Origin: Acidimicrobiia bacterium
GTDB lineage: Bacteria; Actinomycetota; Acidimicrobiia; Spongiisociales; ZC4RG35
DNA: 34,414 bases
Direction: 5' to 3'
Assembly: GCA_025928935.1 (NCBI GenBank)
Contig: JAICNB010000031.1
Location: 1 to 34,414, forward strand
Under the pieces are notes generated by a model. The model ran no database searches. It was not told where the DNA came from and saw only the letters and a program-made list of their open reading frames with translations. Positions 2,001 through 16,894 of the stretch are shown here, piece after piece (the stretch's first letter is position 1; each line of letters opens with the position of its first letter). The position numbers and the translations under genes are program-made.

Positions 2001-2004
<4 letters not shown>

Positions 2005-4379
2005 CGGCGGTCGACGAGATCAAGATCGGCGGGATGGGGGCAAGCAGGCGCCGGGTCGAGGACAACCGCTTCATCAGGGGGAAGGGCAACTACGTAGATG
2101 ACATCGTGCTGCCCGGGATGCTGCACATGGAGATCCTGCGCAGCCCCCTGGCCCACGCGCGCATCAGGTCCATCGATGCCTCGAAGGCATGGGCGATGCC
2201 CGGTGTCAGGCTGGTCCTGACCGGCGAGACGATGGCCGCCCGCAACCTGGCCTGGATGCCGACCCTCTCCTACGACACCCAGGCCGTCCTGGCCACCGAC
2301 AAGGTCCGCTTCCAGGGACAGGAGGTGGCATGCGTGATCGCCGACGACCCCTACATCGCCAAAGACGCATGTGAGGCGATCGTCGTCGATTACGAGCCGT
2401 TGCCGGTCATCGTCAACCCGACCCAGTCGATGGCCGACGGGGCGCCACTGATCAGGGACGACAAGGAGAACCAGCCCAACAACGTGATCTACGACTGGGA
2501 GGTGGGTGACAAGGAGGGGACGGATAGCGCCTTCGCCCAGGCCGATCTGGTCTCCAAGATCGACCTCCACTACCCGCGCTCGCATCCCTCCCCCATCGAG
2601 TGCTGCGGATCGATCGCCGACTTCAACCGGGCCACATCGAAGCTCACCGTCTACCTGACCACTCAGGCGCCCCACATCATCCGGGCGGCGGTGGCGCTGG
2701 TGGCGGAGCTACCCGAGCAGATGATCCGGATCATCTCACCCGACATCGGTGGCGGTTTCGGCAACAAGGTCCCCGTATATCCGGGGTACGTCGCCTCGAT
2801 CCTGGCCTCGATCCTGCTGGAGCGGCCGGTGAAGTGGATCGAGGACCGCACCGGCAACCTGATCTCGACCGGCTTCGCCCGCGACATCTACCTCCACGGA
2901 GAGCTGGCCCTGCGCAAGGACGGCCGGATCCTCGGGGTCCGGATGAACACGACGGCCGACCACGGAGCCTTCTTCTCCGATGCCCAGCCCTCCAAGTTCA
3001 AGATCGGGCTGATGCACTCGGCCTTCTCCTGCTACGACATCCCCAACGCCCATCTCCTGGCACGTGGGGTGTACACCAACAAGGCCCCCGGTGGTGTCGC
3101 CTACCGATGCTCGTTCCGGGTCACGGAGGCGATGTTCTTCCAGGAGCGGATGGTGCAGGCGGCGGCAGACGACCTCGGGATGGATCAGGCCGAGTTCCGC
3201 CGGATCAACTTCGTCCGTGACGACGACTTCCCCCATCGCACCCCGTGGGGCTTCCTCACCGACTCCGGTCAGTACGGCAAGTGCCTAGACGTGGGTCTGG
3301 AGGCGGTCGGCTACCAGGACTTCCTCATGGAGAAGGAGGAGGCAGCCAAGCGCGGCCGACTGCTCGGCATCGGCATCTCCACCATGACCGAGCCGCTCGG
3401 CGCCGGCAACAGCCGGGAGTACGACATTCTCGGGATCAAGATGTTCGATTCGGCCGAGCTCAAGATCCACATGACCGGCAAGGCCCTGCTCCGCACCGGG
3501 GCCAAGAGCCAGGGTCAGGGCCATGAGACGACCTGGGCCCAGATCGTGGCCCACGAGCTCGGGATCCCGGCGGAAGACGTCCTGGTCGAGGAGGGCGACA
3601 CCGACACCGCCCCCTTCGGAATGGGCACCTACGCCTCCCGCAGCACTCCCGTGGCGGGGGCGGCGGTGGCCATGGTGTCACGAAAGATCCGGTCCAAGGC
3701 CCGCAAGATCGCCGCCCATCTCCTCGAGATCTCCGAGGAGGACGTCGAATGGGAGTTGGGCCGCTTCTATGTGCGCAGTCAGCCCGATCGGGGGGTGACG
3801 ATCCAGGAATGCGCGGTCGCCGCCTACTCCAACATGCCCGATGGAATGGAGCCGGGCCTGGAGAACGTCGCCTACTACGACCCACCCAATCTGACCTGGC
3901 CCTTCGCCTGCTACATCGTGAAGGTAGAGGTCGACCCGGCCACCGGGGTGTGGGACGTCCTGCGCATGGTGGCGGTAGACGACTGCGGGGTGCGGATCAA
4001 CCCCATGATCGTCGAGGGTCAGATCATGGGTGGTCTCACCGAGGCTTATGCCATGGCCAACATGCAGTTCATAACCTTCGACGCCGAGGGCAACTGCATC
4101 GGATCGAACTTCACCGACTACCTCCTGCCCACCGCCTGGGAGACCCCCGGCTTCGAGCTCCACGAGGTGGTCACCCCCTGTCCCCATCACCCGATCGGGG
4201 CCAAGGGCATCGGCGAGTGCGCCGCCGTCGGGGGGCCTGCCGCATTCGTCAATGCAGTGATGGACGCCGTCAAGGGCTCGGGAGTGCGCAACATCGACAT
4301 GCCGGTGCTCCCTGACCGGGTCTACGAGGCGCTGCAGACGGGCCAGGACATCAGCGGCGCACCCCCCGTGAAGATGTGA
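2001..4379 (+). CDS. coxL: Form I CO dehydrogenase, large (Mo-Cu) subunit CoxL
   Basis: CoxL is the catalytic subunit that oxidises CO with water to CO2, two protons and two electrons at a Cu-S-Mo(molybdopterin cytosine dinucleotide) centre. The product has 792 residues, close to the usual 800-810. The loop AYRCSFR (Cys at residue 370) matches the form I signature AYXCSFR whose Cys binds copper; form II enzymes have AYRGAGR. Other family motifs are [28 protein letters not shown] and, near the C-terminus, [13 protein letters not shown], where Glu739 corresponds to the conserved Glu beside molybdenum. The start at 2001 overlaps the coxS stop (ATGA); an upstream extension of the frame runs through coxS and is not used. 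Together with CoxM and CoxS this supports genuine CO oxidation. Confidence 0.97.
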
Positions 4380-5356
4380 TGAACGCCCAGCCCGCGGACG
4401 GATGGCGGATGATCGAGATGGCGAGTGATCTCGCCCGTCAAGGGGTGGAGTTCGCCCTGGCCACGGTCGTGTGGCGTCAGGCGCCGTCTTCGGGCCATCA
4501 AGGGGCCCGAGCCATCATCACCGCCGATGGCCAGCTGCATGGGTGGATCGGCGGCGCCTGTGCGGAGCCTGTGGTGGTCAGGGAAGCCCAGCGGGCGATC
4601 GAGGACCGCACACCCCGTCTGATCCTGCTCGGTGCCCCGGATCAGTTCGCGGATGTCCCGGAAGGGATGATGTTCGTCCAGATGTCCTGTCAGTCCGAAG
4701 GTGCGCTCCAGTTGTACATCGAGCCCGTCCTGCCCAGTCCCCACCTGGTCGTGGTGGGCCGCTCGCCGATGGCGGCAACCCTGGTCGAGTTGGCATCGGG
4801 CGTCGGCTGGCGTGCCGACCTGGTGGACGTAGCCGACTTCAAGACCGCTCACGTGGGCAGCAGGTCGGTGGTCGTGATAGCCACCCAGGGGCACGGTGAC
4901 GAGGAGGCGGTCGAACAGGCGGTGACCGTCGGTCCGGCCTTCGTCGGCTTGGTCGCCTCACGCAAGCGTGGCGAGTCAGTCCTTGGCTATTTGGCCGATC
5001 GTGGCGTGGCCCGTGAGGTGCTCGACCAGGTGAGGGTCCCGGTCGGGCTCGACCTGGGCCACACCTCCCATTCCGAGATCGCGGTCTCGGTCCTCGCCGA
5101 GCTGGTCGAGCTGCGAGCGAAGGGCATCCTCGACCCCGAGCCCAACTCGAACCCAGGGTCGCAGACTTCGCTCCGCCGTGCTGGGAACCCTGGGGTCGCG
5201 GGAACCGCGATCGACCTGGTATGTGGGATGACAGTCGCTGCCGACGACACGAGCCGGCCCTTCGTGCACGAAGGCGAGACCTACTACTTCTGCTGCCCTG
5301 GCTGCAGGGCTGCCTTCGAGAAAGACCCCGCCGCCTATGTCACCGTTAGGGAGTGA
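4379..5356 (+). CDS. XdhC/CoxI-family maturation protein fused to a YHS domain
   Basis: XdhC-family proteins bind molybdenum cofactor and help sulfurate and insert it into xanthine dehydrogenase-type enzymes; CoxF and CoxI are the CODH relatives. The 325-residue product has the XdhC N-terminal domain (residues about 10-120, with GWIGGACAEP where SGGCVE is usual), then the Rossmann domain (about 120-250: VVVGRSPMA, GLVASRKRGE, PVGLDLGHTSHSEIAVS). A Ser/Asn/Gly-rich linker leads to a YHS domain (about 278-320: DLVCGMTV ... YYFCCPGC). YHS domains occur in copper ATPases and other metal-handling proteins. The start ATG 4379 overlaps the coxL stop; GTG 4376 is an alternative. The fusion suggests metal delivery, perhaps copper, to CoxL, which is inference. 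Confidence 0.88.
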   Translation: MNAQPADGWRMIEMASDLARQGVEFALATVVWRQAPSSGHQGARAIITADGQLHGWIGGACAEPVVVREAQRAIEDRTPRLILLGAPDQFADVPEGMMFVQMSCQSEGALQLYIEPVLPSPHLVVVGRSPMAATLVELASGVGWRADLVDVADFKTAHVGSRSVVVIATQGHGDEEAVEQAVTVGPAFVGLVASRKRGESVLGYLADRGVAREVLDQVRVPVGLDLGHTSHSEIAVSVLAELVELRAKGILDPEPNSNPGSQTSLRRAGNPGVAGTAIDLVCGMTVAADDTSRPFVHEGETYYFCCPGCRAAFEKDPAAYVTVRE

Positions 5357-5357
5357 G

Positions 5358-5942
5358 ATGCTGATCAAGCACGATTTCGAAGTCGACCAACCGATCGAGA
5401 AGGTCTGGGAGTTCTGCTCGGACATCCCCAACGTCGCTTCCTGTCTCCCCGGTGCCACCCTGACCGATGAGGTGGGGCAGGACCAGTACGAGGGCAACGT
5501 GGCCATCCGCCTCGGTCCCGTTCAGATGCAGTTCGCCGGCCGGGCTGCGGTGAAAGAGCGGGATGAGGCCAGCAAGACCATCGTGCTGGACGCCGCTGGA
5601 GCCGACGAGAAGGGTCGGGGGCAAGCCGCCCTCGGTCTCAAGGCCCGTCTGGTGCCAACCGCCAACGGGACCCGGGTCGAGGTGGAACAGGACCTCCAGC
5701 TCTCCGGCGCCGCAGCCCAGTACGGCCGCGGCATGATCTCCGACGTGAGCGCGGTGATGCTCCGTGACTTCGCCACCAACATGCAGGCCAGGATCGACGC
5801 CTTCGATCGGGGCGTCTCGCTGGACCAGATGGAGGCCCCGAAGAGCGCCGGTGGGTTCGCGATCGGCCTCGCGGCCGCATGGATGGCTTTGAAACGTGTG
5901 GCACGGCGCTTCTTCGGGCCCTATGACCCGGCGAGAGTGTGA
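5358..5942 (+). CDS. coxG: CoxG, SRPBCC-fold CO dehydrogenase accessory protein
   Basis: The 194-residue product is a CoxG-type SRPBCC (START-like) protein. It has the typical opening KHDFEVDQPIEKVWEFCSDI, then SCLPGATLTDE and YEGNVAIRLGP, and ends in a hydrophobic and basic tail (GFAIGLAAAWMALKRVARR) that could anchor it to the membrane. CoxG has been linked to membrane association of CODH, and work on the mycobacterial enzyme has reported that it carries menaquinone to it. The start ATG 5358 is one base after the stop of the preceding gene. It is followed by an unusual array of small membrane proteins, which fits a job at the membrane surface. Confidence 0.92.
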   Translation: MLIKHDFEVDQPIEKVWEFCSDIPNVASCLPGATLTDEVGQDQYEGNVAIRLGPVQMQFAGRAAVKERDEASKTIVLDAAGADEKGRGQAALGLKARLVPTANGTRVEVEQDLQLSGAAAQYGRGMISDVSAVMLRDFATNMQARIDAFDRGVSLDQMEAPKSAGGFAIGLAAAWMALKRVARRFFGPYDPARV

Positions 5943-5953
5943 GGAGGTAGGTC

Positions 5954-6208
5954 ATGACCTGGTGGTGGATAGGGAATCTGGTGCTCCTCCTGGTGGTGGT
6001 GCCGGTCCTGGTCGCTCTCTTGAACCGGGTGCTGTCGGCGGTGGAACGGATCCGCAAGGCCTCCGATGACATCCTCGCCGGCGGCGTGGGATTGATCGGC
6101 GAGGTCGACCGGGTGCCCGAGTTGTTGGCAGTGACCGACGGGACGATCTCCGACGTCGCCAACGGAGCGGTGAGGTATGCGGGCTCCGTGGCGAAGCTGT
6201 TGGGTTGA
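5954..6208 (+). CDS. Small single-span membrane protein, array member 1
   Basis: This 84-residue protein has no recognised family. It begins MTWWWIGNLV and has one strongly hydrophobic helix (about residues 4-24), then a basic stretch (NRVLSAVERIRK) and an amphipathic helix with heptad-like spacing. By the positive-inside rule the C-terminal part should face the cytoplasm. GAGGAGG overlapping the coxG stop gives a clear ribosome binding site for ATG 5954, so it is in the cox operon. It shares the layout, and a loose VPELLAVTDGTISDVA pattern, with member 2. A role in docking CODH or CoxG at the membrane is inference only. Confidence 0.78.
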   Translation: MTWWWIGNLVLLLVVVPVLVALLNRVLSAVERIRKASDDILAGGVGLIGEVDRVPELLAVTDGTISDVANGAVRYAGSVAKLLG

Positions 6209-6221
6209 GGAAGGAGACGAG

Positions 6222-6449
6222 ATGCCTGCTGTCGCAGTAGTCACCCTGGTCCTGGCAACCTTGATAATCCTTGCCGCCGCGGTGGGGCTGATCAGGGTGA
6301 TCGAGCACCTGAGTGCCGCACTGAGCACATTACGAGCGGTCACCGGTGGGGTCGATGTGATCGCGGAGAAGACGAGCACCGTGCCGGCGGTGGTCGGCTC
6401 GGTGAATGCCAGCCTCAAGCCCGTCAGCGATTTCGCGGAGTCGATCTGA
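6222..6449 (+). CDS. Small single-span membrane protein, array member 2
   Basis: This 75-residue protein of unknown function has an N-terminal transmembrane helix (about residues 4-24) followed by an amphipathic helix (RVIEHLSAALSTLRAVTGGV) and a Val/Ser-rich tail, VPAVVGSVNASLKPVSDFAE. ATG 6222 is preceded by AAGGAG at 6211-6216; longer readings of the frame run back into member 1. It overlaps member 3 by one base (TGATG). The tail resembles that of member 1, suggesting distant homology. The overall shape, one anchor plus a coiled-coil-like region, recalls DUF948-type proteins, but I cannot assign it. Confidence 0.75.
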   Translation: MPAVAVVTLVLATLIILAAAVGLIRVIEHLSAALSTLRAVTGGVDVIAEKTSTVPAVVGSVNASLKPVSDFAESI

Positions 6450-6709
6450 TGAGCGAGTTCTTCGGAGGCAATACCGGTTGGATGGTCGGGTACATCATCG
6501 GCATCGTCGTCGTCCTGGTAGTGGTCGCCCTGGTGGTGCCGATCCTCGTCCTTGCCCGGAAGATCGGGAACGAGGCGAAGCTCATCGACGACAGCCTGAA
6601 GAAGTCGGTGGTGAACACGGCGGCCCTCGCCGACTTGAGCACCACCAACCAGATGGCCGTCAACGTAATCCAGGGCCTGGAGCGGGGCCGGAAACGGCTG
6701 GGAGGTTGA
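6449..6709 (+). CDS. Small single-span membrane protein, array member 3
   Basis: The 86-residue product has a short polar N-terminus with Gly, a long hydrophobic helix (about residues 12-35: GYIIGIVVVLVVVALVVPIL), then a basic and amphipathic segment (ARKIGNEAKLIDDSLKK) and the pattern NTAALADLSTTNQMAV followed by GLERGRKRLGG. The pattern NTA-x-L-x-TT-x-GLE recurs in member 4, so the two look like paralogues. The start overlaps the stop of member 2. Function unknown; co-expression with CODH is likely from the tight spacing. Confidence 0.77.
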   Translation: MSEFFGGNTGWMVGYIIGIVVVLVVVALVVPILVLARKIGNEAKLIDDSLKKSVVNTAALADLSTTNQMAVNVIQGLERGRKRLGG

Positions 6710-6711
6710 AC

Positions 6712-6993
6712 ATGGCCCTCGCATTGACGCACACCGAGCTCTGGGAGATAGCCAACTGGGCCGGGCTGGTCGTTGTCGTCGCTGTCGCGATCCTCCTCAC
6801 CATCCTGGTGGTCCTGGTACGGACCATCGATCGCCGGGTCGCCGGCATCAAAGAGACCCTGAAGCAGGCCGAGGCCAATACCGCTGACGCGGCCCTGCTC
6901 GACACCACTGCAGCAGGCGTCGATCTGGTGCTCGCCGAAGGTCTGGAGCACCATCTGTTCCTGGGCCGGGTGCTGGGGAAGGTGCGCTCATGA
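6712..6993 (+). CDS. Small single-span membrane protein, array member 4
   Basis: The 93-residue product starts at ATG 6712, two bases after the stop of member 3, with GGGAGG in the end of that gene as ribosome binding site. It has a polar N-terminal segment (LTHTELWEIANWAG), one transmembrane helix (about residues 19-40), then an amphipathic helix (DRRVAGIKETLKQAEA) and the NTADAALLDTTAAGVDLVL...GLE pattern shared with member 3. The end overlaps member 5 at ATGA. No family is recognised. Confidence 0.77.
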   Translation: MALALTHTELWEIANWAGLVVVVAVAILLTILVVLVRTIDRRVAGIKETLKQAEANTADAALLDTTAAGVDLVLAEGLEHHLFLGRVLGKVRS

Positions 6994-7361
6994 GCCTCGT
7001 CCTGTTCAGCGTCCTCGACATCGTCCTCCTCATCGCCGGGTTGGCCATCTACCTCTGGATCGTCGGCGGACAACTGACCCGTATCGCCGGCAATCTCGAG
7101 GAGTGCAGCGACCTGGTGCAGCAGATCAAGGCCAACGCCGAGCCGATCGAAGGCAACCTCGAGCACGTCAACCGCACCGGCGGGGTCGTGGCCGGTGCCC
7201 TCCCCCTGCTCTACGGGATGGCGGAGGGGATCGTCACCGGCGCCACCTACGACCCGGAGCAGATCGCCCAGCGCGGCCCGGCGGTTCCCGCCTCGGGCAC
7301 ACGTCGCTCTCGCATGTTGCATGCGGTGGGATACGCCCCAGAAGGGCAAACCGGGAAGTGA
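6990..7361 (+). CDS. Small single-span membrane protein, array member 5
   Basis: At 123 residues this is the largest member. It has an N-terminal transmembrane helix (about residues 3-25, IVLLIAGLAIYLWIVGGQL), a long heptad-like segment (LTRIAGNLEECSDLVQQIKA, then EPIEGNLEHVNRT), a hydrophobic patch GALPLLYGMAEGIV that could lie on the membrane, and a basic, probably flexible C-terminal tail. The segment resembles coiled-coil regions of DUF948-like or chemoreceptor-like proteins, but no assignment is safe. It ends just before a 10-bp hairpin, so it closes the cox operon. Confidence 0.76.
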   Translation: MSLVLFSVLDIVLLIAGLAIYLWIVGGQLTRIAGNLEECSDLVQQIKANAEPIEGNLEHVNRTGGVVAGALPLLYGMAEGIVTGATYDPEQIAQRGPAVPASGTRRSRMLHAVGYAPEGQTGK

Positions 7362-7367
7362 CAGCGC

Positions 7368-7395
7368 CGGGTCGGGTGGCGCCTTACCCGACCCG
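7368..7395 (+). terminator. Hairpin closing the cox operon
   Basis: CGGGTCGGGT at 7368-7377 pairs perfectly with ACCCGACCCG at 7386-7395 around an 8-base loop. It begins seven bases after the stop of the last array gene. There is no T tract, as is common for terminator hairpins in high-GC bacteria. Confidence 0.65.
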
Positions 7396-7526: not shown

Positions 7527-8087
7527 ATGACTTCGCAGACGGCCGACAGGTCTCGATTCGAAGCGATCTGGCGCCAGCACCGCCATCAGGTGCTGGCCTA
7601 TTGCCTGCGACGCGCGTCGACGGCCGATGCAGAGGACGCTTGCGCCGAGACGTTTCTCGTCGTGTGGAGGCGAATCGACGAGATACCGTCGGCCCCCAAG
7701 ACCCTTCCTTGTCTCTACGGGATCGCCCGCAAATCGCTGTCGAATCAGACACGAGCCTTCTATCGAAGGGGGCGTCTCCACACAAAGCTCACCAACCTGG
7801 GCATGACGACTGCCGCCGACCCGATGCTCGTTGTCGTGCAGAGCGCCGACGACAAGGTAGTGACAGACGCGGTCCGACGGCTCAGGCCCGTCGACCGGGA
7901 GATAGTGATGCTCGATGTCTGGGAGGACCTGTCAAGGACCGAGATCGCCGAGGTGATGGGCATGACACGGGCCGCCGTCGATCAGCGGATCCATCGCGCC
8001 TATCAGAAGCTCTCCCTGGCCCTGGAGCCCGTCTTGGAGATACGTTCGATCGCTTCCCCTCCGATCGCCGAGGAAGGAGGGACATGA
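7527..8087 (+). CDS. ECF-type RNA polymerase sigma factor, copy 1
   Basis: The 186-residue product is an extracytoplasmic-function sigma factor. Region 2 is seen in RFEAIWRQHRHQVLAYCLRR and AEDACAETFLVVWRRIDEIP, and the region 4 helix-turn-helix in RPVDREIVMLDVWEDLSRTE followed by IAEVMGMTRAAVDQRIHRAY. It should direct RNA polymerase to a small regulon. It overlaps the next gene at ATGA, and that gene encodes a membrane protein likely to control it. AAGGGG just upstream of ATG 7527 can serve as the ribosome binding site. An almost identical layout recurs at 9039-10438. Its place between the CODH structural and maturation genes makes control of the locus possible, but nothing in the sequence proves it. 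Confidence 0.9.
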   Translation: MTSQTADRSRFEAIWRQHRHQVLAYCLRRASTADAEDACAETFLVVWRRIDEIPSAPKTLPCLYGIARKSLSNQTRAFYRRGRLHTKLTNLGMTTAADPMLVVVQSADDKVVTDAVRRLRPVDREIVMLDVWEDLSRTEIAEVMGMTRAAVDQRIHRAYQKLSLALEPVLEIRSIASPPIAEEGGT

Positions 8088-8932
8088 CGCACGACCAGAT
8101 CCGTGAGATGGTCCGCCGGGTGAACCCGATCCCGGACCCGAGCATGCTCGAGATCGTCGATGTGCCTGTCCTCACGACCCCTCTGGAGAGGAGGACGGAA
8201 ATGCAGATCGATGACAGACCCGGGACTGAGGTCCAGGCGGACCGCAATCGCCGGCGCGGTCCCCTGGTCGGGATCGCGGTGGCGGCACTGATTCTGGTGG
8301 CGGGAGCGGTGTTCTTGCTGACCCGGAATGAGACTCCGGTGGCCGAGCCGGCCCCGAATGCGACGCTGCTCACCCGTGAGATGGAGTTGCAGCCGATCGA
8401 TCCGGGTGCCTACTTCGTCGACACCGACGGCGACCCGGCGACGACACCTCGCGGCACCTTCGTGATCGAAGGCGCTGGGTGGACCGGACTCGCACCCGGG
8501 GCGTTCTATGCGGTCACGGAAGACGAGGCAGGGCTGATGGTGGCCGAGGTGGACACGGTGGGGGCGCCGGCATGTGGTAGCGGCGCGAAACTGCAGCCCG
8601 CCGGGACATCGGCGGAGGATCTGGCCAACCAGTTTGCCGCCGCCGGATTCTCCATTCAAGAGGCGGTGTCTCCGGTGACTGCCTTTGGGCACAGCGGATA
8701 CCACCTCGTGGTCGAGGTCCCTCCCGGGTGCGATAGCGATGCCCACTGGGTCTGGATGGGCCCAACCTTCGGGCGCTACTACCACCAGAGCCCGGGTCAA
8801 GTGGTCGAGTACTGGTTCCTCGATGTGGAGGGCACACCAGTCATGGTGGAGGCGTCCTGGATGGCCGAGTTCGCAGAGGAGGACGTGGCTCAACTGCGGG
8901 CCGCCATCGACACCCTTGTCATCACGCCGTAG
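8084..8932 (+). CDS. Single-pass membrane partner (putative anti-sigma) of ECF copy 1
   Basis: The 282-residue protein has a cytoplasmic N-terminal segment (MTHDQIREMVRRVNPIPDPS), a basic stretch (ADRNRRRG), one transmembrane helix (about 61-80) and an extracytoplasmic domain of about 200 residues with two conserved Cys (ACGSG and PPGCDS) that could form a disulfide. Translational coupling to the sigma gene suggests it is the anti-sigma factor or sensor. No HxxxCxxC zinc anti-sigma motif is present, so any such role uses a different interface. The N-terminal half is very similar to the copy at 9596; the outer domain has diverged. The outer domain belongs to no family I know. Confidence 0.72.
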   Translation: MTHDQIREMVRRVNPIPDPSMLEIVDVPVLTTPLERRTEMQIDDRPGTEVQADRNRRRGPLVGIAVAALILVAGAVFLLTRNETPVAEPAPNATLLTREMELQPIDPGAYFVDTDGDPATTPRGTFVIEGAGWTGLAPGAFYAVTEDEAGLMVAEVDTVGAPACGSGAKLQPAGTSAEDLANQFAAAGFSIQEAVSPVTAFGHSGYHLVVEVPPGCDSDAHWVWMGPTFGRYYHQSPGQVVEYWFLDVEGTPVMVEASWMAEFAEEDVAQLRAAIDTLVITP

Positions 8933-8951
8933 GCAGCGGCACCCGATAGCT

Positions 8952-8981
8952 GGAACGGGTCGGCACACGCCGACCCGTTCC
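8952..8981 (+). terminator. 13-bp hairpin between the two sigma/partner pairs
   Basis: GGAACGGGTCGGC (8952-8964) pairs perfectly with GCCGACCCGTTCC (8969-8981) around the tetraloop ACAC, 20 bases after the stop of the first partner gene. This is a very stable stem and likely a terminator separating the duplicated units. TCCTGTC (8999-9005) and GACAGGA (9024-9030) just downstream form a further 7-bp inverted repeat whose right arm is also the likely ribosome binding site of the second sigma gene. Confidence 0.7.
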
Positions 8982-9038
8982 TGTCGAGTGGGCAAGAATC
9001 CTGTCAACGCGGAATCTGATCCGGACAGGAACTGGTTG

Positions 9039-9599
9039 ATGGCGACGAAGGCGGACGCAGAGCGGAGGGCTCGCTTCGAGGCGATCTGGGCCGAGCACTC
9101 ACCCAAGGTGCGCGCCTACTGCATACGTCGGGTCGCATCACACGACGCCGACGACGTCGCTGCCGAGATATTCCTGGTGGTATGGCGCCGGATCGACGAG
9201 ATTCCGCCGGCGCCCAAGACTCTCCTCTATATCTACGGCATCGCAGGCAAGGTGGTCTCCAACCACACCCGATCGTTCCGTCGCAAATCCCTTCTCGACG
9301 AGAAGCTGCGCAATCTGGGTGTCGCTCCCCCGGTCGACCCAGCGTTGCTCGTCGTCCAGAGCTCCGACGACGCCGATGTCGCAGCGGCGGTTCGAAACCT
9401 GAGCCAACGAGACCGCGAGATCGTCATGCTCTACGCCTGGGAGGATCTTCCGCGGAACGACATCGCCGAGATCATGGGTATGACCAGGTCCGCGGTCGAC
9501 CAGAGAATTCACCGTTCCTACCAGAAACTGGCTCGGGCTCTCCAGCCCCTCATCAAACCAAACCCTTCCCCTCCGGTCGCTGAGGAAGGAGCGACATGA
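9039..9599 (+). CDS. ECF-type RNA polymerase sigma factor, copy 2
   Basis: A 186-residue ECF sigma factor, the same length as copy 1 and clearly its paralogue. Region 2 shows ARFEAIWAEHSPKVRAYCIRR and EIFLVVWRRIDEIPPAPKTL; region 4 shows SQRDREIVMLYAWEDLPRND and IAEIMGMTRSAVDQRIHRSY. The start ATG 9039 follows AGGA at 9027-9030 and gives the same length as copy 1; upstream readings run into the preceding gene. It overlaps its partner gene at ATGA. Differences in the region 4 recognition helix from copy 1 are small, so the two may recognise overlapping promoters. Confidence 0.9.
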   Translation: MATKADAERRARFEAIWAEHSPKVRAYCIRRVASHDADDVAAEIFLVVWRRIDEIPPAPKTLLYIYGIAGKVVSNHTRSFRRKSLLDEKLRNLGVAPPVDPALLVVQSSDDADVAAAVRNLSQRDREIVMLYAWEDLPRNDIAEIMGMTRSAVDQRIHRSYQKLARALQPLIKPNPSPPVAEEGAT

Positions 9600-10438
9600 C
9601 ACACGATCAGATCGATCGCATGGTCCGCAAGGCAAATCCGCTGCCGGACCCGACTGCCCTCGAGCCTGTGGAAGTGCCGGTCCTCGCCACCCCTCTCGAG
9701 AGGAGAATGGAAATGCAGATCGATGACAGACCCACCGAGGTCCAGGCAGACCGCAATCGCCGGCGAGGTCCCATCGTGGGGATCGCGGCGGCGGCGGTGA
9801 TCCTGGTCGCAGGGCTCGTCTTGTTCTTGACCAGGGACAACACCCCGGTGGCCGAGCCGGCCCCGAATGCCACTGAACTGACGGGCGACGGTCAGCCCCT
9901 AGCCCCCGGCGCCTACTACGCCGACACCGACGGCAACGAGGAGACGGCGACTCGTGGCACCTTTGTCATCGAAGGTGACGGGTGGGAGGACGCATCCGGG
10001 GCCGGGGCGATGAAGAGTTTTGCTGAGAACCAAGTTGTTTGGCTCTTGGTCGTCGAGGTCGACGAGGTGTGGCCATCGATATGCGAGTCGACCGCTCCGG
10101 TGGCGGCGGGGACGACCGCGGCCGAACTGGCCAACCAGATCGCCAACAATGGATCGACGGTCCGGGAGGCGTTGGCGCCGGTCAATGCCTTCGGCCACAA
10201 CGGGTACCACCTGGTCGTAGAGGTGCCCGCTGGGTGCGGCGGTGAGGCCAAACCGGCCTGGACGGGCCCCGTTTTCGGCTTTGAGCGTTACTCCGACCCA
10301 ACCGAGATGGTGGAATACTGGTTCCTGGATGTGGAGGGCACCCCGGTCATGATCGATGCGACCTGGACGCCAACTTCCCCGGAGGAGGATGTGACCGAGC
10401 TCAGGGCAGTGCTCGACACCTTGGTGATCACTCCCTAG
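9596..10438 (+). CDS. Single-pass membrane partner (putative anti-sigma) of ECF copy 2
   Basis: The 280-residue paralogue of the protein at 8084 has the same layout: N-terminal MTHDQIDRMVRKANPLPDPT, a basic segment, one transmembrane helix (about 61-78) and a large extracytoplasmic domain with Cys in SICES and PAGCGG. The stretch from TPLERR to the helix and VAEPAPNAT is nearly identical to copy 1, while the loop after FVIEGDGWE differs strongly (MKSFAENQVVWLLVVEVDEV against a shorter, different version). This pattern is expected of a duplicated signalling unit whose sensor domains are diverging. No zinc anti-sigma motif is visible. Confidence 0.72.
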   Translation: MTHDQIDRMVRKANPLPDPTALEPVEVPVLATPLERRMEMQIDDRPTEVQADRNRRRGPIVGIAAAAVILVAGLVLFLTRDNTPVAEPAPNATELTGDGQPLAPGAYYADTDGNEETATRGTFVIEGDGWEDASGAGAMKSFAENQVVWLLVVEVDEVWPSICESTAPVAAGTTAAELANQIANNGSTVREALAPVNAFGHNGYHLVVEVPAGCGGEAKPAWTGPVFGFERYSDPTEMVEYWFLDVEGTPVMIDATWTPTSPEEDVTELRAVLDTLVITP

Positions 10439-10824: not shown

Positions 10825-11268
10825 CTATCCACCCGCACCCGGCGGCTCTCGCCGAGTCGTCAGCGGGCCGGTGGTGCCCGGGGTCTCGTACTCCCCTATC
10901 CAGTGCTCCTCCCACGCATGGTCGTATTGATCCTGGTTGCACCCGGGGCGATAGATGGCGATCAGCTCACGGACGATCTGCTCACGATGACCCCGGGTGC
11001 CGCCGGGGACCTCGTAGACGGCGATGTGGAGGTCGAACCGCTTGCCCCCCACTCGAGCCAGCCAGCACCCCGCGGCCGGGTGGTCGAAGGGAAGTCGCTC
11101 GGTGGAGAAATCATCCGAATGGCCCACGAACAGCACTCCGTACTCGGTCTTGGCCGGGTCGGGCCTGTACATGACAGCGAACACCCCGGCTCGGGCCGGA
11201 GCGGTCCAACCGGCCAGGACCCTCGGCCCTTCGAAGGGATACCCGGCCAGCGAGCCGAGCCGGATCAT
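10825..11268 (-). CDS. Unknown 147-residue protein, possible degenerate GIY-YIG fold
   Basis: The start ATG 11268 overlaps the stop of the upstream gene (ATGA) and is preferred over a longer Arg-rich reading. The product has no sure family. The succession GVFAVMYRPDP, then GVLFVGHSDDFS, a helix with HPAAGCWLARVG, EQIVRELIAIYRPGCNQDQ has the spacing of a GIY-YIG domain (GIY, YIG-x-S, E in the last helix, Y-x-P-x-x-N), but the first Tyr is Phe and the second motif is FVG, so nuclease activity is doubtful. The C-terminal 20 residues look disordered. It is the last gene of the minus-strand moxR/VWA operon, which suggests an accessory role there. Confidence 0.7.
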   Translation of the reverse strand: MIRLGSLAGYPFEGPRVLAGWTAPARAGVFAVMYRPDPAKTEYGVLFVGHSDDFSTERLPFDHPAAGCWLARVGGKRFDLHIAVYEVPGGTRGHREQIVRELIAIYRPGCNQDQYDHAWEEHWIGEYETPGTTGPLTTRREPPGAGG

Positions 11269-11570
11269 CCGCGTGGGCCCACTTCGTCGGCGCCGTAGAA
11301 CTCGTCCTCGTCCTCGGCGATCGTCTCGACGTCGACGATGGGCCACACCGGGAGACGGGCCTTGGCCACGGCCTCGGTGAACACCGTCAGGGCTCGCTCG
11401 ACCGCCTGCTCGCCGTCATCCGCCTCGACCACGATTTGGGCCCCGTAGCTCGAGGTCCCCATCCCGCTGGCGATCCCGTTGCTGGCGGCCACCGCATCGG
11501 CCAGCTCCACGACTTCCTCCAACTCGATGATACGGTCACCCTCTGCCATGAGGGAGACGCTCCATCTCAT
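11265..11570 (-). CDS. Unknown 101-residue protein of the coxD/coxE-like operon
   Basis: I do not recognise this small protein. It starts MRWSVSLMAEGDRIIELEEV, continues VVELADAVAASNGIASGMGT, has a strand-rich middle (YGAQIVVEADDGEQAVERAL), and ends in an acidic tail (ETIAEDEDEFYG). Alternating strand and helix suggest a small alpha/beta sandwich. It is sandwiched by ATGA overlaps with the VWA gene upstream and the 147-residue gene downstream, so its synthesis is tied to theirs. There is no membrane segment or signal peptide. Confidence 0.75.
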   Translation of the reverse strand: MRWSVSLMAEGDRIIELEEVVELADAVAASNGIASGMGTSSYGAQIVVEADDGEQAVERALTVFTEAVAKARLPVWPIVDVETIAEDEDEFYGADEVGPRG

Positions 11571-12733
11571 CGCAGCTCGGGGAGCCGGTCGGCCAGCTCT
11601 TCCAGACTGGCCAGGTCGTGCCCGGAGAGGAGCAGGTCGATGTAAGGCTCGGCCACCATCATCCCCAGGGTGTTCGGCCGGAAGTCGGGGTGGTGGCCCT
11701 TGTGCGGGTTCATCCAGATCACCTTGTGACTCAGCCTCGAAAGACGCTCCATGGCACCGGCCAGCAGCGCCGGGTCACCCCGGTCGAGCCCATCGGAGCA
11801 GATGACCACGATGGACCCACGGCTCATGCCCCTTCTCCCCCACTGGCGGACGAATGTGTCGATCGACTCGCCGATCCTGGTGCCCCCTTCCCAGTCGAAC
11901 ACCAACCGGGCGGCCTGATCCAGCGCGTCGTCCGGCCGCCGGCGCTCGAGGGCGCGTGTGATCCGGGTCAGCCGGGTCCCGAAGCAGAACACCTCGACCC
12001 GGGCCGCGGCGCGTCGGGTCGAGTAGGCGAACTGGAGGAGATTGCGGCTGTAGTCGGCCATCGAGCCCGAGACGTCGAGGATGAGCACCAGTGGCCTCAT
12101 CTTCAGTCGACGCCGACGCCAGAAGAGCTCTGCGGGCTCGCCGTGCATCCGCAAGGTGGTCCGCACCGTGCGGCGCAGGTCGGGACGAGTCCCGGATGGA
12201 GCCCCAGCAGTGCGTCGGCTGCGGCGACGGGGCGGGACTACCCGGATCCGGTTCATGATCCTCCGCAGGGCGGCCAATTCCTCGTCGGTGCAGGCAGCGA
12301 AAGCCTTGTGGCGCCAGATCTCAAGATCGGAGGCCATTAGACCCAGCCTCGCCTCCTCCTCGTCCTTGCCGGGTCGGCCCGGTTCGGTGGCCGGCACCTC
12401 GATGACCGCCTGGCTCTCGATGTCGGAGCTCTTGAGCGCGAGCTTCATCGGCTCAGGCAGCTCATCGTGAGAATCGAGGAAGAAGCTGCGAAAGACACGG
12501 TCGTATATGGGGATCTGGTCACGTCGGGTCACCAGGGTGGTCCGACCTCCCCAATACACATCGAGCAAGTCACCCGGGTCGAGAGCAGCCACCGCGCCAC
12601 AGAAGGAGAGGAGCTCCCCGGACCCGACCGGGATTCCAGCCCATCGCAGCCGTTCGCCAAAGTCGACCAGCATCCTCACCAGCGGGCCCTCGGAATCTCG
12701 GCCCAGCAAGCCAAGGCCGCCGGCCTCAGCCAT
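11567..12733 (-). CDS. CoxE-like VWA-domain protein, copy 1
   Basis: The 388-residue product is a VWA protein of the CoxE family. The metal-ion-dependent adhesion site is DVSGSMADYS at about 220-229, preceded by the family's RRRRLKMRPLVLIL; later VWA motifs are GGTRIGES and ICSDGLDRGD. CoxE proteins pair with MoxR ATPases, and in Oligotropha CoxD/CoxE act in building the Cu-S-Mo site of CODH. Basic segments (VVPPRRRSRRTAG) precede the VWA domain. The start overlaps the end of the MoxR gene by eight bases. A second CoxE-like gene at 15785 has a diverged N-terminal half. Confidence 0.9.
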   Translation of the reverse strand: MAEAGGLGLLGRDSEGPLVRMLVDFGERLRWAGIPVGSGELLSFCGAVAALDPGDLLDVYWGGRTTLVTRRDQIPIYDRVFRSFFLDSHDELPEPMKLALKSSDIESQAVIEVPATEPGRPGKDEEEARLGLMASDLEIWRHKAFAACTDEELAALRRIMNRIRVVPPRRRSRRTAGAPSGTRPDLRRTVRTTLRMHGEPAELFWRRRRLKMRPLVLILDVSGSMADYSRNLLQFAYSTRRAAARVEVFCFGTRLTRITRALERRRPDDALDQAARLVFDWEGGTRIGESIDTFVRQWGRRGMSRGSIVVICSDGLDRGDPALLAGAMERLSRLSHKVIWMNPHKGHHPDFRPNTLGMMVAEPYIDLLLSGHDLASLEELADRLPELR

Positions 12734-13613
12734 CGGCGGCTAGCTCCTCCAGCCGACCCATGACCGTCTCGAGGTCATCACGCTCCTTGATCACTGCGCC
12801 AAGGGTGTCCTCGACGGTCTGAGTGTCGAGCTCTTCGCGGCCCAGGACATTGAGGGCCGCCACCCAGTCCAGCGTCTCGGCGATGCCGGGAGGCTTGGCC
12901 AGGTCCAGCCCGCGTAACCGGTTTACCGCCGTCACCACCTTTCGGGCCAGGTTCTCGGACGCCTCCGGGGCCCGCACCCGGATGATCTCCACCTCACGCT
13001 CGGCGCTCGGGTACCCAACCCAGTGATAGAGACAGCGGCGCTTCAGGGCATCGTGCAGCTCCCGGGTGCGGTTGGATGTCAGGATCACCACCGGTGGGGC
13101 GTCAGCGGTGATGGTGCCGATCTCGGGAATGGTGATCTGGAAGTCGGACAGAAGCTCCAGGAGGAAGGCCTCGAACTCGTCATCGGCCCGGTCGACCTCG
13201 TCGATGAGCAGCACGGCCCGATCCCCCTCGCGTAGTGCGGTGAGCAGTGGGCGCTCGAGGAGGAACCTGGGACCGAACAACTTCTCGACCTGTTCCTCAT
13301 CGGCGATGTCACGTTCCGAGAGCGCCCTGATCTGGAGCATCTGACGGGCGTAGTCCCACTCGTAGAGAGCCTGGTTGGTGTCGATGCCCTCGTAACACTG
13401 GAGCCTGATGAGCTTGCGCCCGAATACCGACGCCAGCACCTTGGCCAGCTCGGTCTTGCCCACCCCCACCTCACCCTCGACGAGGAGCGGGCGTCCCAGG
13501 GTCAGGGCGACGTACACCGCGGTGGAGAGCCCCCTGTCTGCCAGATAGCCGCCTGATCGGAGGAGGTCGGTCAGCCCGGCGACACTGGCCGGTGACGGGA
13601 TGGAGTCGCTCAC
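12726..13613 (-). CDS. MoxR-family AAA+ ATPase (CoxD-like), copy 1
   Basis: The 295-residue product is a MoxR ATPase. Walker A is GEVGVGKTE (about 47-55), Walker B LLIDEVDRAD (135-144), and the sensor/arginine region TSNRTRELHDALKRRC. RLQCYEGID and ALYEWDYARQ are typical of the CoxD branch. MoxR ATPases with VWA partners act as chaperones that insert cofactors; CoxD of Oligotropha was linked to insertion of S and Cu into CODH. Translation begins at GTG 13613, with GGCAAGG upstream. Its neighbour downstream is the VWA gene. A paralogue lies at 14910. Confidence 0.92.
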   Translation of the reverse strand: MSDSIPSPASVAGLTDLLRSGGYLADRGLSTAVYVALTLGRPLLVEGEVGVGKTELAKVLASVFGRKLIRLQCYEGIDTNQALYEWDYARQMLQIRALSERDIADEEQVEKLFGPRFLLERPLLTALREGDRAVLLIDEVDRADDEFEAFLLELLSDFQITIPEIGTITADAPPVVILTSNRTRELHDALKRRCLYHWVGYPSAEREVEIIRVRAPEASENLARKVVTAVNRLRGLDLAKPPGIAETLDWVAALNVLGREELDTQTVEDTLGAVIKERDDLETVMGRLEELAADG

Positions 13614-13650
13614 GGCCTTGCCCTCTCCGGACGGGGTGTGATCGCCAGGG

Positions 13651-13899
13651 CTAGCTGCCCTGACCGAGCACCAGGTCTCGAACCGACCCTTCCGAGGCGC
13701 TCAACTTGCCTTCCCGCGCCAGCTTGGCCCGCCAAGCGGCGCCGATGTCGCTTCCAGGCTCGGCATAGCCGTCGAAGGTCACGCCCTTCATGTTGCGGCA
13801 CGACTTGGTCGGGCTGCAGTCTTCGTCGAGGTCGTGGTCGTGGGCGACCGCCCACACCGATTGCAGCACGTCCGCGGTGGTCTCGTCCCGAGCCGTCAT
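13651..13899 (-). CDS. Small hypothetical protein upstream of the MoxR gene
   Basis: An 82-residue protein without a recognised family. It starts MTARDETTADVLQSVWAVAH, followed by DHDLDEDCSPTKSCRNMKGV, with two Cys six residues apart, then GYAEPGSDIGAAWRAKLA. The pattern could bind a metal, but that is speculation. On its strand TAGACT lies nine bases before ATG 13899, giving a nearly leaderless start. The gap to the MoxR gene is 37 bases, so it probably heads that operon. Confidence 0.65.
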   Translation of the reverse strand: MTARDETTADVLQSVWAVAHDHDLDEDCSPTKSCRNMKGVTFDGYAEPGSDIGAAWRAKLAREGKLSASEGSVRDLVLGQGS

Positions 13900-13935
13900 C
13901 CTGTTCGAAGTCTAACCGCCGAGGGCCCGAATCGA

Positions 13936-14841
13936 CTATGGAGCGCTTCGGGCATCGATGGCCTCGGCCAAGATGGACACTGCGATCTCACCGGGCGTCT
14001 CGGCGCCGATGTCCAGCCCGGCCGGACCGTGAACCCTGCCGAGATCGCTCACACCCCGGTAGCCCAGCCAATCCGCCCGGGTCTCCTGCATACGCCTGCT
14101 GCCCACGGATCCGATGTAGCCGGCCTCGCTCTCCAGTGCCGCCAGCAGGGCCGGGCCGGCCAATTCGAGATCGTGTGCGGCCACCACCACCTTGTCGGCC
14201 GGGGAGAGGCCGGCGATGACCCCAGCAGCCGCGGCGACGTCGGTGACGACCCGGATCTTCCACCCCAACGCGGCCGCCATCTCCGCGAGCGCCTCCGCCA
14301 CTGGGGTGCTCCCTACGATCGCGATCTCCGGCACGGCGCTGAACACCGAGATCACCCGATCATCGACCGCCATCGAGGATCCGGGGCCCTCCGCGAGACG
14401 CTGTTGGACTCGCTCGTCCGCCTCGCCCACGGTGTCAGGGGTGTACAGCTCGAACCCGAACACCTCGTCTCCCTTCAGCCGGGCGACGAGACAGAACGGC
14501 TGGCGGGCCCCGGCCAAGTCCAGGACCCGGGCAGGAAGCTGCGCCGCCGGGACGATCAGGCACCGTGCCGATGCGCCGGCCTCTATTCCGGCGATGAGCG
14601 CATCCACGTCTCCGAGCTCGACATCGACGAGGCGGCCGCTATCCCAGCGCCCTGCCATGTCCGCCAGCTGGGCGTCGAACACGCCCCCGGCCAGGGTCGC
14701 CACACGGCCACCACCAGGTGTGAACATGACCGCATCGGACCAGTCCGCGATCGCGATTCCATCGGCTTCGACCAGCCATGCGACATCGGCGCGGGTCCCG
14801 GCGCGAAGACAGGCCGCGGCGCTGAGGGCGATCCCGTACAC
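13936..14841 (-). CDS. XdhC/CoxI-family maturation protein
   Basis: The 301-residue product has a weakly conserved XdhC N-terminal domain (about 10-110, ATLAGGVFDAQL where SGGCVE is usual) and a clear C-terminal XdhC Rossmann domain (about 145-295: IAIVGSTPVAEALAEMAAAL, YIGSVGSRRMQETR, GPAGLDIGAETPGEIAVSIL). Family members handle molybdenum cofactor for xanthine dehydrogenase-type enzymes. The usual Cys of the N-terminal motif is absent. GTG 14841 lies seven bases after TACAAT on this strand, so a leaderless transcript is likely. It is divergent from the second MoxR gene, with both promoters in the 68-base gap. Confidence 0.85.
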   Translation of the reverse strand: MYGIALSAAACLRAGTRADVAWLVEADGIAIADWSDAVMFTPGGGRVATLAGGVFDAQLADMAGRWDSGRLVDVELGDVDALIAGIEAGASARCLIVPAAQLPARVLDLAGARQPFCLVARLKGDEVFGFELYTPDTVGEADERVQQRLAEGPGSSMAVDDRVISVFSAVPEIAIVGSTPVAEALAEMAAALGWKIRVVTDVAAAAGVIAGLSPADKVVVAAHDLELAGPALLAALESEAGYIGSVGSRRMQETRADWLGYRGVSDLGRVHGPAGLDIGAETPGEIAVSILAEAIDARSAP

Positions 14842-14909
14842 GCGCTCGATTGTATGGAGCAGACCGTGTGCAGAGAACCACCGCCAGGGGGCCGTTTAGT
14901 CTTTCGGTT
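14842..14909. promoter_or_regulatory. Divergent promoters of the XdhC-like and second MoxR genes
   Basis: On the minus strand TACAAT (14849-14854) lies seven bases before GTG 14841. On the plus strand TAGTCT (14897-14902) lies seven bases before GTG 14910. Both match the TANNNT-N6/7-start layout of leaderless genes. Good -35 hexamers are not visible. A shared regulator could act in the space between. Confidence 0.6.
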
Positions 14910-15788
14910 GTGATTCCAGACACAGTCGAGAAGCTCGACCAGCGTCTCGACGACCTCGACTACTTCGCCGACGAGAGTCTTCTCGTCGCCATCCACATCG
15001 CCGTCCAGCTCGGCCGGCCCCTCTTCCTCGAAGGTGAGGCCGGGGTGGGCAAGACCGAGGTGGCGAAGGTCCTCGCTGCCATGGGAGAAGCAGAGCTAAT
15101 TCGTCTCCAGTGTTACGAGGGGCTGGACGTGGGCCAGGCCCTTTACGAATGGGACTACGCCCGTCAGATGATGGCGATCCGGCTCCTCGAGGCGCGTGGC
15201 GAGGGTGCCAGCGCGACGCCGGACGACATCATGAGCCGCGATTACCTGATCGCACGGCCCCTGCTTCAGGCGATCGAGGCCAGCACCACCGGGCACCGGC
15301 CCGTGCTGCTCATCGACGAGCTCGATCGGGCTGACGAGGAGTTCGAGGCATTCCTGCTGGAGTTGCTGTCGGACTTCCAGGTGACGATCCCGGAGATCGG
15401 GACGATCAAGGCGGAGACCAGACCCATCGTTGTCCTGACCTCGAATCGCACGAGAGAGATCCACGATGCCCTGAAACGCCGCTGCGTCTACCACTGGATC
15501 GACTACCCGACTCCGGCTCGGGAGGCCGAGATCATCACGAGAAAGGTCCCCGAGCTCGAGGGCGGGCTGGCCGTCTCACTTGCCGAGGCGATGCGCCGTC
15601 TGCGGGAGATGGAGTTGTTCAAGCCACCAGGGGTGGCCGAGACCCTCGACTGGGCGGAGTCACTGAAGCTCCTCCAAGCCGGAAAGCTGACGCCGTCGAC
15701 GATCGACAGCACGATCGGCGTGGTCCTCAAGTACAAGGACGACATCGACATGGTGCGCAGCGCAGGGGTCGAGAAACTCGTCGGATGA
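14910..15788 (+). CDS. coxD: MoxR-family AAA+ ATPase (CoxD-like), copy 2
   Basis: The 292-residue MoxR ATPase has Walker A GEAGVGKTE (about 42-50), Walker B LLIDELDRAD, RLQCYEGLD and ALYEWDYARQ, and the sensor region TSNRTREIHDALKRRC. It is strongly similar to copy 1 but carries an insertion-like segment, EARGEGASATPDDIMSRDYL, in the middle. GTG 14910 was chosen because it directly precedes the conserved N-terminus and sits seven bases after TAGTCT; a longer reading from 14850 would cross the divergent promoter. The gene order MoxR, VWA, XdhC matches coxD-coxE-coxF, so this set is the better candidate for the canonical CoxD. Confidence 0.92.
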   Translation: MIPDTVEKLDQRLDDLDYFADESLLVAIHIAVQLGRPLFLEGEAGVGKTEVAKVLAAMGEAELIRLQCYEGLDVGQALYEWDYARQMMAIRLLEARGEGASATPDDIMSRDYLIARPLLQAIEASTTGHRPVLLIDELDRADEEFEAFLLELLSDFQVTIPEIGTIKAETRPIVVLTSNRTREIHDALKRRCVYHWIDYPTPAREAEIITRKVPELEGGLAVSLAEAMRRLREMELFKPPGVAETLDWAESLKLLQAGKLTPSTIDSTIGVVLKYKDDIDMVRSAGVEKLVG

Positions 15789-16894
15789 GCCCGCTCGGCT
15801 TGATCGACCAGCTCAGCGCCTTCTCATCATCACTGCGCGGACGCGGCCTGGTGGTGACCCCCGACCAGACCTCGGACATGGCCCGGGCCCTCACGCTGAT
15901 CGATCTGGCCAGCCGCACCCAGGCCAGGGCGTCCCTGCGCTCGCTCGCGGTCACCGACCCGTCGCAGATCCCGGTGTTCGACGAGGAGTTCGACAGGTTC
16001 TTCGCCGGGTTCCCGCCATCCCTGCTCCCGCCCCGTCACGACGTCGAGTTATCCCGGGTCCCGGTCAGTTCGCTCCAGGGCGGCGCGGGCAGCGAGAGCG
16101 TGGACGTGGCCGCCCAGTCGGGGGCCTCTGCGGTGGAGAGGCTCGCCACGCGCGACTTCGCCGATCTCGACGATGACGACCTCCAGGAAGCTCGTCGTCT
16201 CGTCATGACCATGATGTGGCACCCCACCGACTACCGGACACGCCGCTGGTCACCCGGCGACGGCCGTCGCCCCGACCTTCGACGGACGTTGCGGAAGGCC
16301 GTCGGACCGACAGGGGACATGATGTCCCTGAGCTGGAAGAGGCGGCGCCGGAAGGAGCGCCCTCTGATCATCATCGCCGACATCTCGGGATCAATGGAGA
16401 AGTACTCCGACATCTTCCTCGTGTTCGCCCACGCCGCCCAGCGTCGCCTGCGCGAAGTGGAGATCTTCACCTTCTCCACCCGACTCAGCCGCATCACCGA
16501 GGACATGCGTCGCCGGGACACGAGGACGGCGTTGGCCCGGGTGGCCGAGCGGGTGACCGACTGGTCTGGTGGCACCCAGATCGGCGAGGCACTCTCGGAA
16601 TGGAACCGTCTCTGGAGCCGGCGATTGGCACGGGGCGGGCCGGTGGTGATGATCTTGTCCGACGGATGGGACTGCGGCGACCCGGGTCTGCTGACGACGG
16701 AGATCGCCCGTCTGGCCCGCTCGGTCCATCAGGTGATCTGGCTCAACCCGCTGGCGGCCCGTGACTCCTACCAGCCGCTGACGCGCGGCATGCAGGCGGT
16801 GATGCCGCACATCGATCAGCTGTTGCCGGCGGCTAGCGTCAGTGACTTCAAGGGTGTGGTGAAAGTGCTCGATTCCGTGGCCGGAGCGGGATGA
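15785..16894 (+). CDS. coxE: CoxE-like VWA-domain protein, copy 2
   Basis: The 369-residue VWA protein has its MIDAS motif [10 protein letters not shown] at about 199-208, preceded by [16 protein letters not shown], then [10 protein letters not shown] and [10 protein letters not shown]. It is the expected partner of the MoxR ATPase upstream, with which it overlaps at ATGA. The C-terminal [20 protein letters not shown] is typical of CoxE. In known CODH systems CoxE assists CoxD in maturing the Mo-Cu site. It overlaps the next gene by four bases. Confidence 0.92.

Follow-up and report, generated by a model that had tools for sequence, protein, structure and literature searches.

A HylTM1-5-type set of five small membrane proteins common to a form I CO dehydrogenase operon and [NiFe]-hydrogenase loci

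How soluble oxidases of atmospheric H2 and CO reach the quinone pool in the membrane is the question raised by a 34,414-nucleotide stretch of DNA (the window), which corresponds in full to contig G000:C42 of an actinobacterial assembly with 144 contigs. The host is an uncultured actinobacterium with a form I CO dehydrogenase (CODH) operon, in which coxG is followed by five very short genes, here called m1 to m5. The five-part set is common to this CODH and certain hydrogenases, which suggests one membrane adaptor for two unrelated air-scavenging enzymes. Use of one five-protein module by two such enzymes would mean that it probably solves a quinone-pool problem common to both.

The operon and its five small genes

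The CoxL of the window has both marks of a form I enzyme, an AYxCSFR loop and a score above the TIGR02416 cut-off. The features of the window are:

590-1465, + strand: coxM, FAD subunit; the first ATG/GTG/TTG is at 707, with homologous in-frame sequence from near 590
1465-2004, + strand: coxS, [2Fe-2S] subunit
2001-4379, + strand: coxL, form I; AYRCSFR motif; TIGR02416 score 1099 (cut-off 991)
4379-5356, + strand: XdhC/CoxI-type accessory protein with a fused C-terminal YHS domain
5358-5942, + strand: coxG (SRPBCC, PF06240) with a basic C-terminal helix; matches the solved CoxG-family chain 8uds_D
5954-6208, + strand: m1, 84 aa, single transmembrane (TM) protein with homologs in CODH and hydrogenase loci
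6222-6449, + strand: m2, 75 aa, single TM; m5 paralog
6449-6709, + strand: m3, 86 aa, single TM; m4 paralog; one helix (4-83) in the AlphaFold model
6712-6993, + strand: m4, 93 aa, single TM; cox-type tail EGLEHHLFLGRVL.KV
6990-7361, + strand: m5, 123 aa, single TM; one helix (2-84) in the AlphaFold model, then a low-confidence, conserved, cox-only tail
about 7368-7395, + strand: strong hairpin 3' of m5 (-27.5 kcal/mol, z -2.4) without a T-tract
11567-12733, - strand: coxE (VWA_CoxE), convergent with the operon in most module-bearing loci
12726-13613, - strand: coxD (MoxR-type AAA ATPase)

Upstream of 707, about 39 homologous N-terminal codons of CoxM lie in frame without an ATG, GTG or TTG start, and translation may begin at an ATC near 590, behind AAGGAGG; CoxM has 291 aa in a related genome (G009) and apparently begins at the 252-aa length in the congener G001 and in G002 too. 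A small ORF 5' of coxM (227-568), without a Pfam match, is kept in G001 (90%) and G009 (86%), and a gene of similar size lies upstream of coxM in many module-bearing cox loci. Beside coxE, two small conserved genes of 147 and 94 aa, also without a Pfam match, occupy 10825-11549 on the minus strand, and most module-bearing cox loci have similar-sized genes at this position. Directly behind the operon (7527-10438) are two tandem paralogous pairs of an ECF sigma factor and an anti-sigma-like membrane protein of about 280 aa, one such pair being present in G001 as well. The region 11567-16894 holds two coxD and two coxE genes in divergent arrangement, with more XdhC-type genes nearby.

The original prediction described five short consecutive genes behind coxG, overlapping or a few bases apart, and their coordinates, order and single predicted TM helices are all borne out. 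Spacings are +13, -1, +2 and -4 nt for m1/m2, m2/m3, m3/m4 and m4/m5, and each gene has a positive coding score. Between the window and G001, dN/dS is 0.04-0.10 for m1-m5, 0.03 for coxL and 0.05 for coxG; these coxL- and coxG-like values mark m1-m5 as real, constrained genes under strong purifying selection, and their conservation across dozens of loci rules out chance ORFs. The array had also been said to end at a terminator hairpin. A strong hairpin does follow m5, kept in G001 and not evident in G009, but since it has no T-tract it is not a canonical intrinsic terminator.

Lysine and arginine are almost absent before the TM helix and number 1.2-3.8 within 15 aa after it, and from this charge bias, seen in all five families, an N-outside/C-inside topology is predicted. 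AlphaFold models m3 and m5 each as one continuous helix of about 80 residues, of which roughly 50-60 (about 75-90 Å) would be left in the cytoplasm. An amphipathic segment had been claimed for all five proteins; helical moments compared with shuffles of the family alignments uphold this to a moderate degree, being in clear excess for m5, in marginal excess for m1 and m2, and not in excess for cox-type m3 and m4. Partner-specific tails are conserved on m5 and m4 in cox loci, and the m5 tail, modelled with low confidence, is absent from hydrogenase loci. The m1-m5 TM proteins have no conserved redox ligands.

Profile-profile comparison of the five, which had been proposed as a check, showed the suspected m3/m4 likeness to be real (E 8.5e-11) and brought out a relation between m2 and m5 that had been missed (E 1.3e-9); m1 and m3 are distantly alike (E 7.9e-6, probability 84). 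For m1 and m2 the result (E 0.057, probability 1%) gives no kinship by this test, they were rejected as paralogs, and the 'VP-x-LL-x-V' tail that they share is not evidence of it. The five thus form two paralog groups, m3 and m4 with perhaps m1, and m2 with m5. In Pfam and NCBIfam scans, m1-m5 reached no more than sub-threshold matches (ATP-synt_B, DUF2561, DUF948), which we take as TM or coiled-coil resemblance and reject as identities; a PDB sequence search returned only coiled-coil-like matches, to m5, and a Foldseek search with the m5 model returned no match.

Occurrence with CODH and with hydrogenases

The block is found in the cox loci of G001, G009 and G002 (where the contig ends after m1) and is absent from other form I cox loci within the order, where CoxL identity is about 65%. 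One genome per species was scanned with an alignment of cox-type m1, used because the broad m1 alignment was too variable, and the resulting 153 relatives and 80 fetched loci are thus biased towards cox loci; the class and phylum surveys are less biased evidence. Nearly all of the 80 loci read coxS-coxL-(XdhC)-coxG-m1-m2-m3-m4-m5, in most cases with convergent coxE and coxD behind. The cox-linked module recurs in dozens of Actinomycetota, and its hosts, cultured ones among them, include Amycolatopsis rubida, three named Pseudonocardia species, Virgisporangium, Rhizocola, Kineosporia, Trebonia kvetii, Planosporangium and Actinomadura. All 79 module-bearing sequences group into a single clade of the CoxL tree (support 100).

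Because the fetched loci had been found through the module itself, CoxL was searched independently in 296 genomes of the class. Here m1 is present in 12/12 genomes with a clade CoxL (74-100% identity) and in none of the 42 with only another form I CoxL (54-66%), a Fisher p of 2.9e-12 if shared descent is ignored. The search of other genomes therefore confirms a conserved co-occurrence of the block with coxG and coxL. Most form I CODHs, including those of pHCG3 of Afipia carboxidovorans and of related Acidimicrobiia, have no module, which CODH in general thus does not need; no record of the plasmid collection, pHCG3 included, has an m1 match. CODH loci that carry the module retain coxG, basic C-terminal helix included, so the module comes on top of CoxG rather than in its place.

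In several loci (L139, L171, L189, L191, L148, L181, L140, L157) the module-bearing operon has a neighbour, a second form I CoxL operon that lacks the module; in Pseudonocardia the two lie back-to-back. One record titled Acidobacteria (L185) has a CoxL and module identical to those of G157, from the window's order, and is probably a mis-titled MAG. Matches of P0003 inside 8-TM proteins of G037, G044 and G050, and weak m1 matches in G009:C46 and G121 (183-aa TM proteins), G175 and G285, were dismissed as chance.

The array had been read as a device specific to CODH and CoxG, and this is overturned by homologous five-gene sets at [NiFe]-hydrogenase loci without cox genes, at which the m1-m5 profiles match all five partners. 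Wide occurrence of the block without cox genes had been named in advance as contrary evidence, and this was observed in part, at hydrogenase loci. In G018, G041 and G268 the five families flank the hydrogenase cluster, with m3-m4-m5 divergent from hydS-hydL and m1-m2 beyond NifU, HycI and TPR genes; DUF1059 lies alongside in G018 and G268. G003 has a similar layout in pieces, with m1-m2 on another contig. In L245 the order is hydS-m3-m4-m5-m1-m2-hydL and the five are matched one to one (E 7.5e-10, 1.7e-15, 4.5e-13, 1.7e-12, 6.9e-10); L266 has the same layout. This is the gene order in genomes G374 and G423, with all five matched by their own profiles.

Among the same 296 genomes, m1 is present in six of the seven with a close hydrogenase (53% or more), and in the seventh (G242) m3 and m5 adjoin the hydrogenase where the contig ends. 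All 18 genomes with a strong m1 have a clade CoxL or a close hydrogenase, and module-bearing hydrogenase loci are common across the phylum; the genome of the window has no close hydrogenase. The large subunit of the G018-type hydrogenase has PDB entry 5AA5, assigned to group 1h in the literature, as its closest match, and is about 44% identical to hydrogenases of Cupriavidus and Streptomycetaceae. The module is absent from the group 1h loci of C. necator (Cupriavidus) and Kitasatospora.

Such linkage bears on whether m1-m5 could be DUF948-like membrane proteins with a role in regulation or stress, tied to the operons through the starvation response without direct contact with the enzyme. DUF948 (PF06103) has one N-terminal TM helix plus a coiled coil, and a few m3 and m5 relatives have weak, sub-threshold similarity to it (best E 4.3e-5 and 0.003); the window's own m1-m5 give no DUF948 match that reaches the Pfam gathering score. 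However, near-perfect linkage to only two enzyme types, a constant number of five, genes that overlap or lie close together, and partner-specific tails make this account improbable.

Other arrangements were also seen. In L108 (G244:C47, 8760-12750), divergent m3-m4-m5-m1 enclose a truncated-haemoglobin-like gene, with a NuoF-like flavoprotein downstream, possibly a third type of partner. L110, L261 and L262 have the module and then two or three longer membrane proteins (about 200-250 aa) that contain repeats such as ING-T and weakly resemble m3 and m5. Two different hydrogenases adjoin in L234 and L231 (G432, G519), one sharing about 65-68% identity with the G018 type and the other about 42-44%; several module genes occur there in multiple copies, between the hydrogenases or around them.

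A tree of concatenated m1-m5 places the main CODH set (38 rows) in one clade (100/100), and a second CODH set (L260, L265) falls apart from it with strong support; the latter has a CoxL 55-57% identical to that of the window and the module in the 1l gene order. Hence, the module either joined CODH at least twice or was formerly more widespread and then lost. In cox loci of Rhizocola, Planosporangium and a Micromonosporaceae MAG, DUF1059 separates m2 from m3, another sign of a common origin with the hydrogenase module.

A putative dock for trace-gas oxidases

The original prediction proposed a membrane dock or quinone-access platform, and this is still our best guess for the function; the hydrogenase link supports the general idea of a dock, widened to two trace-gas oxidases. 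Each subunit would cross the membrane once, with the N-terminus outside, and continue into the cytoplasm as a single long helix, and the five would assemble as a parallel hetero-oligomer. The bundle would be a membrane-anchored stalk on which a cytoplasmic oxidase docks, form I CODH here and a [NiFe]-hydrogenase elsewhere, and through which the docked enzyme gains access to menaquinone. The partner-specific tails of m5 and m4 in cox loci would be enzyme-binding surfaces, and CoxG, reported at second hand to bind menaquinone (PMC13240472, citing Kropp 2025), an extra carrier specific to CODH.

By the charge bias around the TM helix, the helices are placed on the same membrane side as CODH and as hydrogenases that have no evident Tat signal. 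The CODH of M. smegmatis is primarily cytosolic (PMC6794299) and no Tat signal is evident in the hydrogenase small subunits examined, from which it follows that both enzymes act in the cytoplasm. That m1-m5 are the CODH version of HylTM1-5, forming a parallel stalk that docks the enzyme and gives it menaquinone access, is a reading to which we give an even chance, because the amphipathic periodicity is only moderate and the complex is one that we infer.

Two further accounts start from the same observations. The five helices may hold the apo-enzyme at the membrane during cofactor insertion, by CoxD/CoxE/XdhC-type factors for CODH and HybD/NifU/CooC-type factors for hydrogenase, and take no part in turnover. 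The module does usually lie among accessory genes (coxD/E and XdhC in cox loci; NifU, HycI, CooC and TPR in hydrogenase loci), and TM proteins without conserved redox ligands would suit such a platform. Yet the two enzymes have the same five membrane proteins without any common cofactor chemistry, and other form I CODHs have the usual accessory genes without the module, so we consider this unlikely. A conduit or channel for a small molecule (gas, proton or quinone), with no docking role, would agree with five TM helices in fixed number and the same predicted orientation in cox and hydrogenase loci. The conserved cytoplasmic helices and partner-specific tails point instead to protein-protein contacts, and the consensus shows no prominent conserved polar TM residues of the kind expected for an ion pathway, which leaves the conduit highly improbable.

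Beyond the dock itself, we suggest tentatively, and with some doubt, that the five-subunit parallel-helix menaquinone stalk is a general membrane adaptor, a cassette moved between [NiFe]-hydrogenases and Mo-Cu CODH with its specificity in the C-terminal tails. Cultured hosts (Pseudonocardia, Amycolatopsis, Kineosporia, Trebonia) make the role of the module testable, and the second, module-free form I operon of Pseudonocardia beside the first is a natural control.

Comparison with known systems

As a kind of gene set the array has a precedent: in group 1l [NiFe]-hydrogenase clusters, five short predicted TM proteins (HylTM1-5) are already described, encoded between the two subunit genes, small and large (PMC9561532, citing an earlier study). 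The m1-m5 proteins are likewise five short single-TM proteins, and they are homologous to the five that lie between hydS and hydL at loci of 1l layout (m3, m4, m5, m1 and m2 in L245 and L266), the comparison being with these loci and with the published description. In contrast, the set in the window follows coxG in a form I CODH operon instead of lying between hydrogenase subunit genes, its order is m1 to m5 and its m5 and m4 tails are cox-specific. The block is hence a known kind of hydrogenase gene set with a new partner, not a CODH invention. No earlier report of m1-m5-type proteins in CODH operons appeared in the freely accessible literature that was searched.

Group 1m clusters of Actinobacteriota are described with HybD, an FeS assembly protein, CooC, TPR, DUF1059 and two small single-TM proteins of 82-92 aa (PMC9561532). 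The likeness is that m1, m2 and DUF1059 adjoin in L062 and L103, whereas these loci carry three more members (m3-m5), divergent upstream of the small subunit gene, so that the full set is five. As a fit to published layouts rather than a formal hydrogenase classification, G374 and G423 match the group 1l description, and G018, G041 and G268 that of group 1m except for their five TM proteins.

The proposed role resembles that of HucM, whose tube or stalk carries menaquinone over 94 Å (PMC10017518), similar to the roughly 75-90 Å that an m3 or m5 helix would span: both would be helical scaffolds linking a cytoplasmic enzyme to menaquinone in the membrane. HucM differs in being a single peripheral protein that forms a tetramer, and neither sequence nor fold kinship between it and m1-m5 was detected. 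CoxC, CoxH and CoxK of pHCG3 are likewise membrane proteins of a form I cox cluster but are larger and annotated with MHYT domains. Judged by sequence relationships, the block of the window is a HylTM1-5-type module that two unrelated trace-gas oxidases of the cytoplasm share, and its CODH partners belong to at least two lineages of CoxL.
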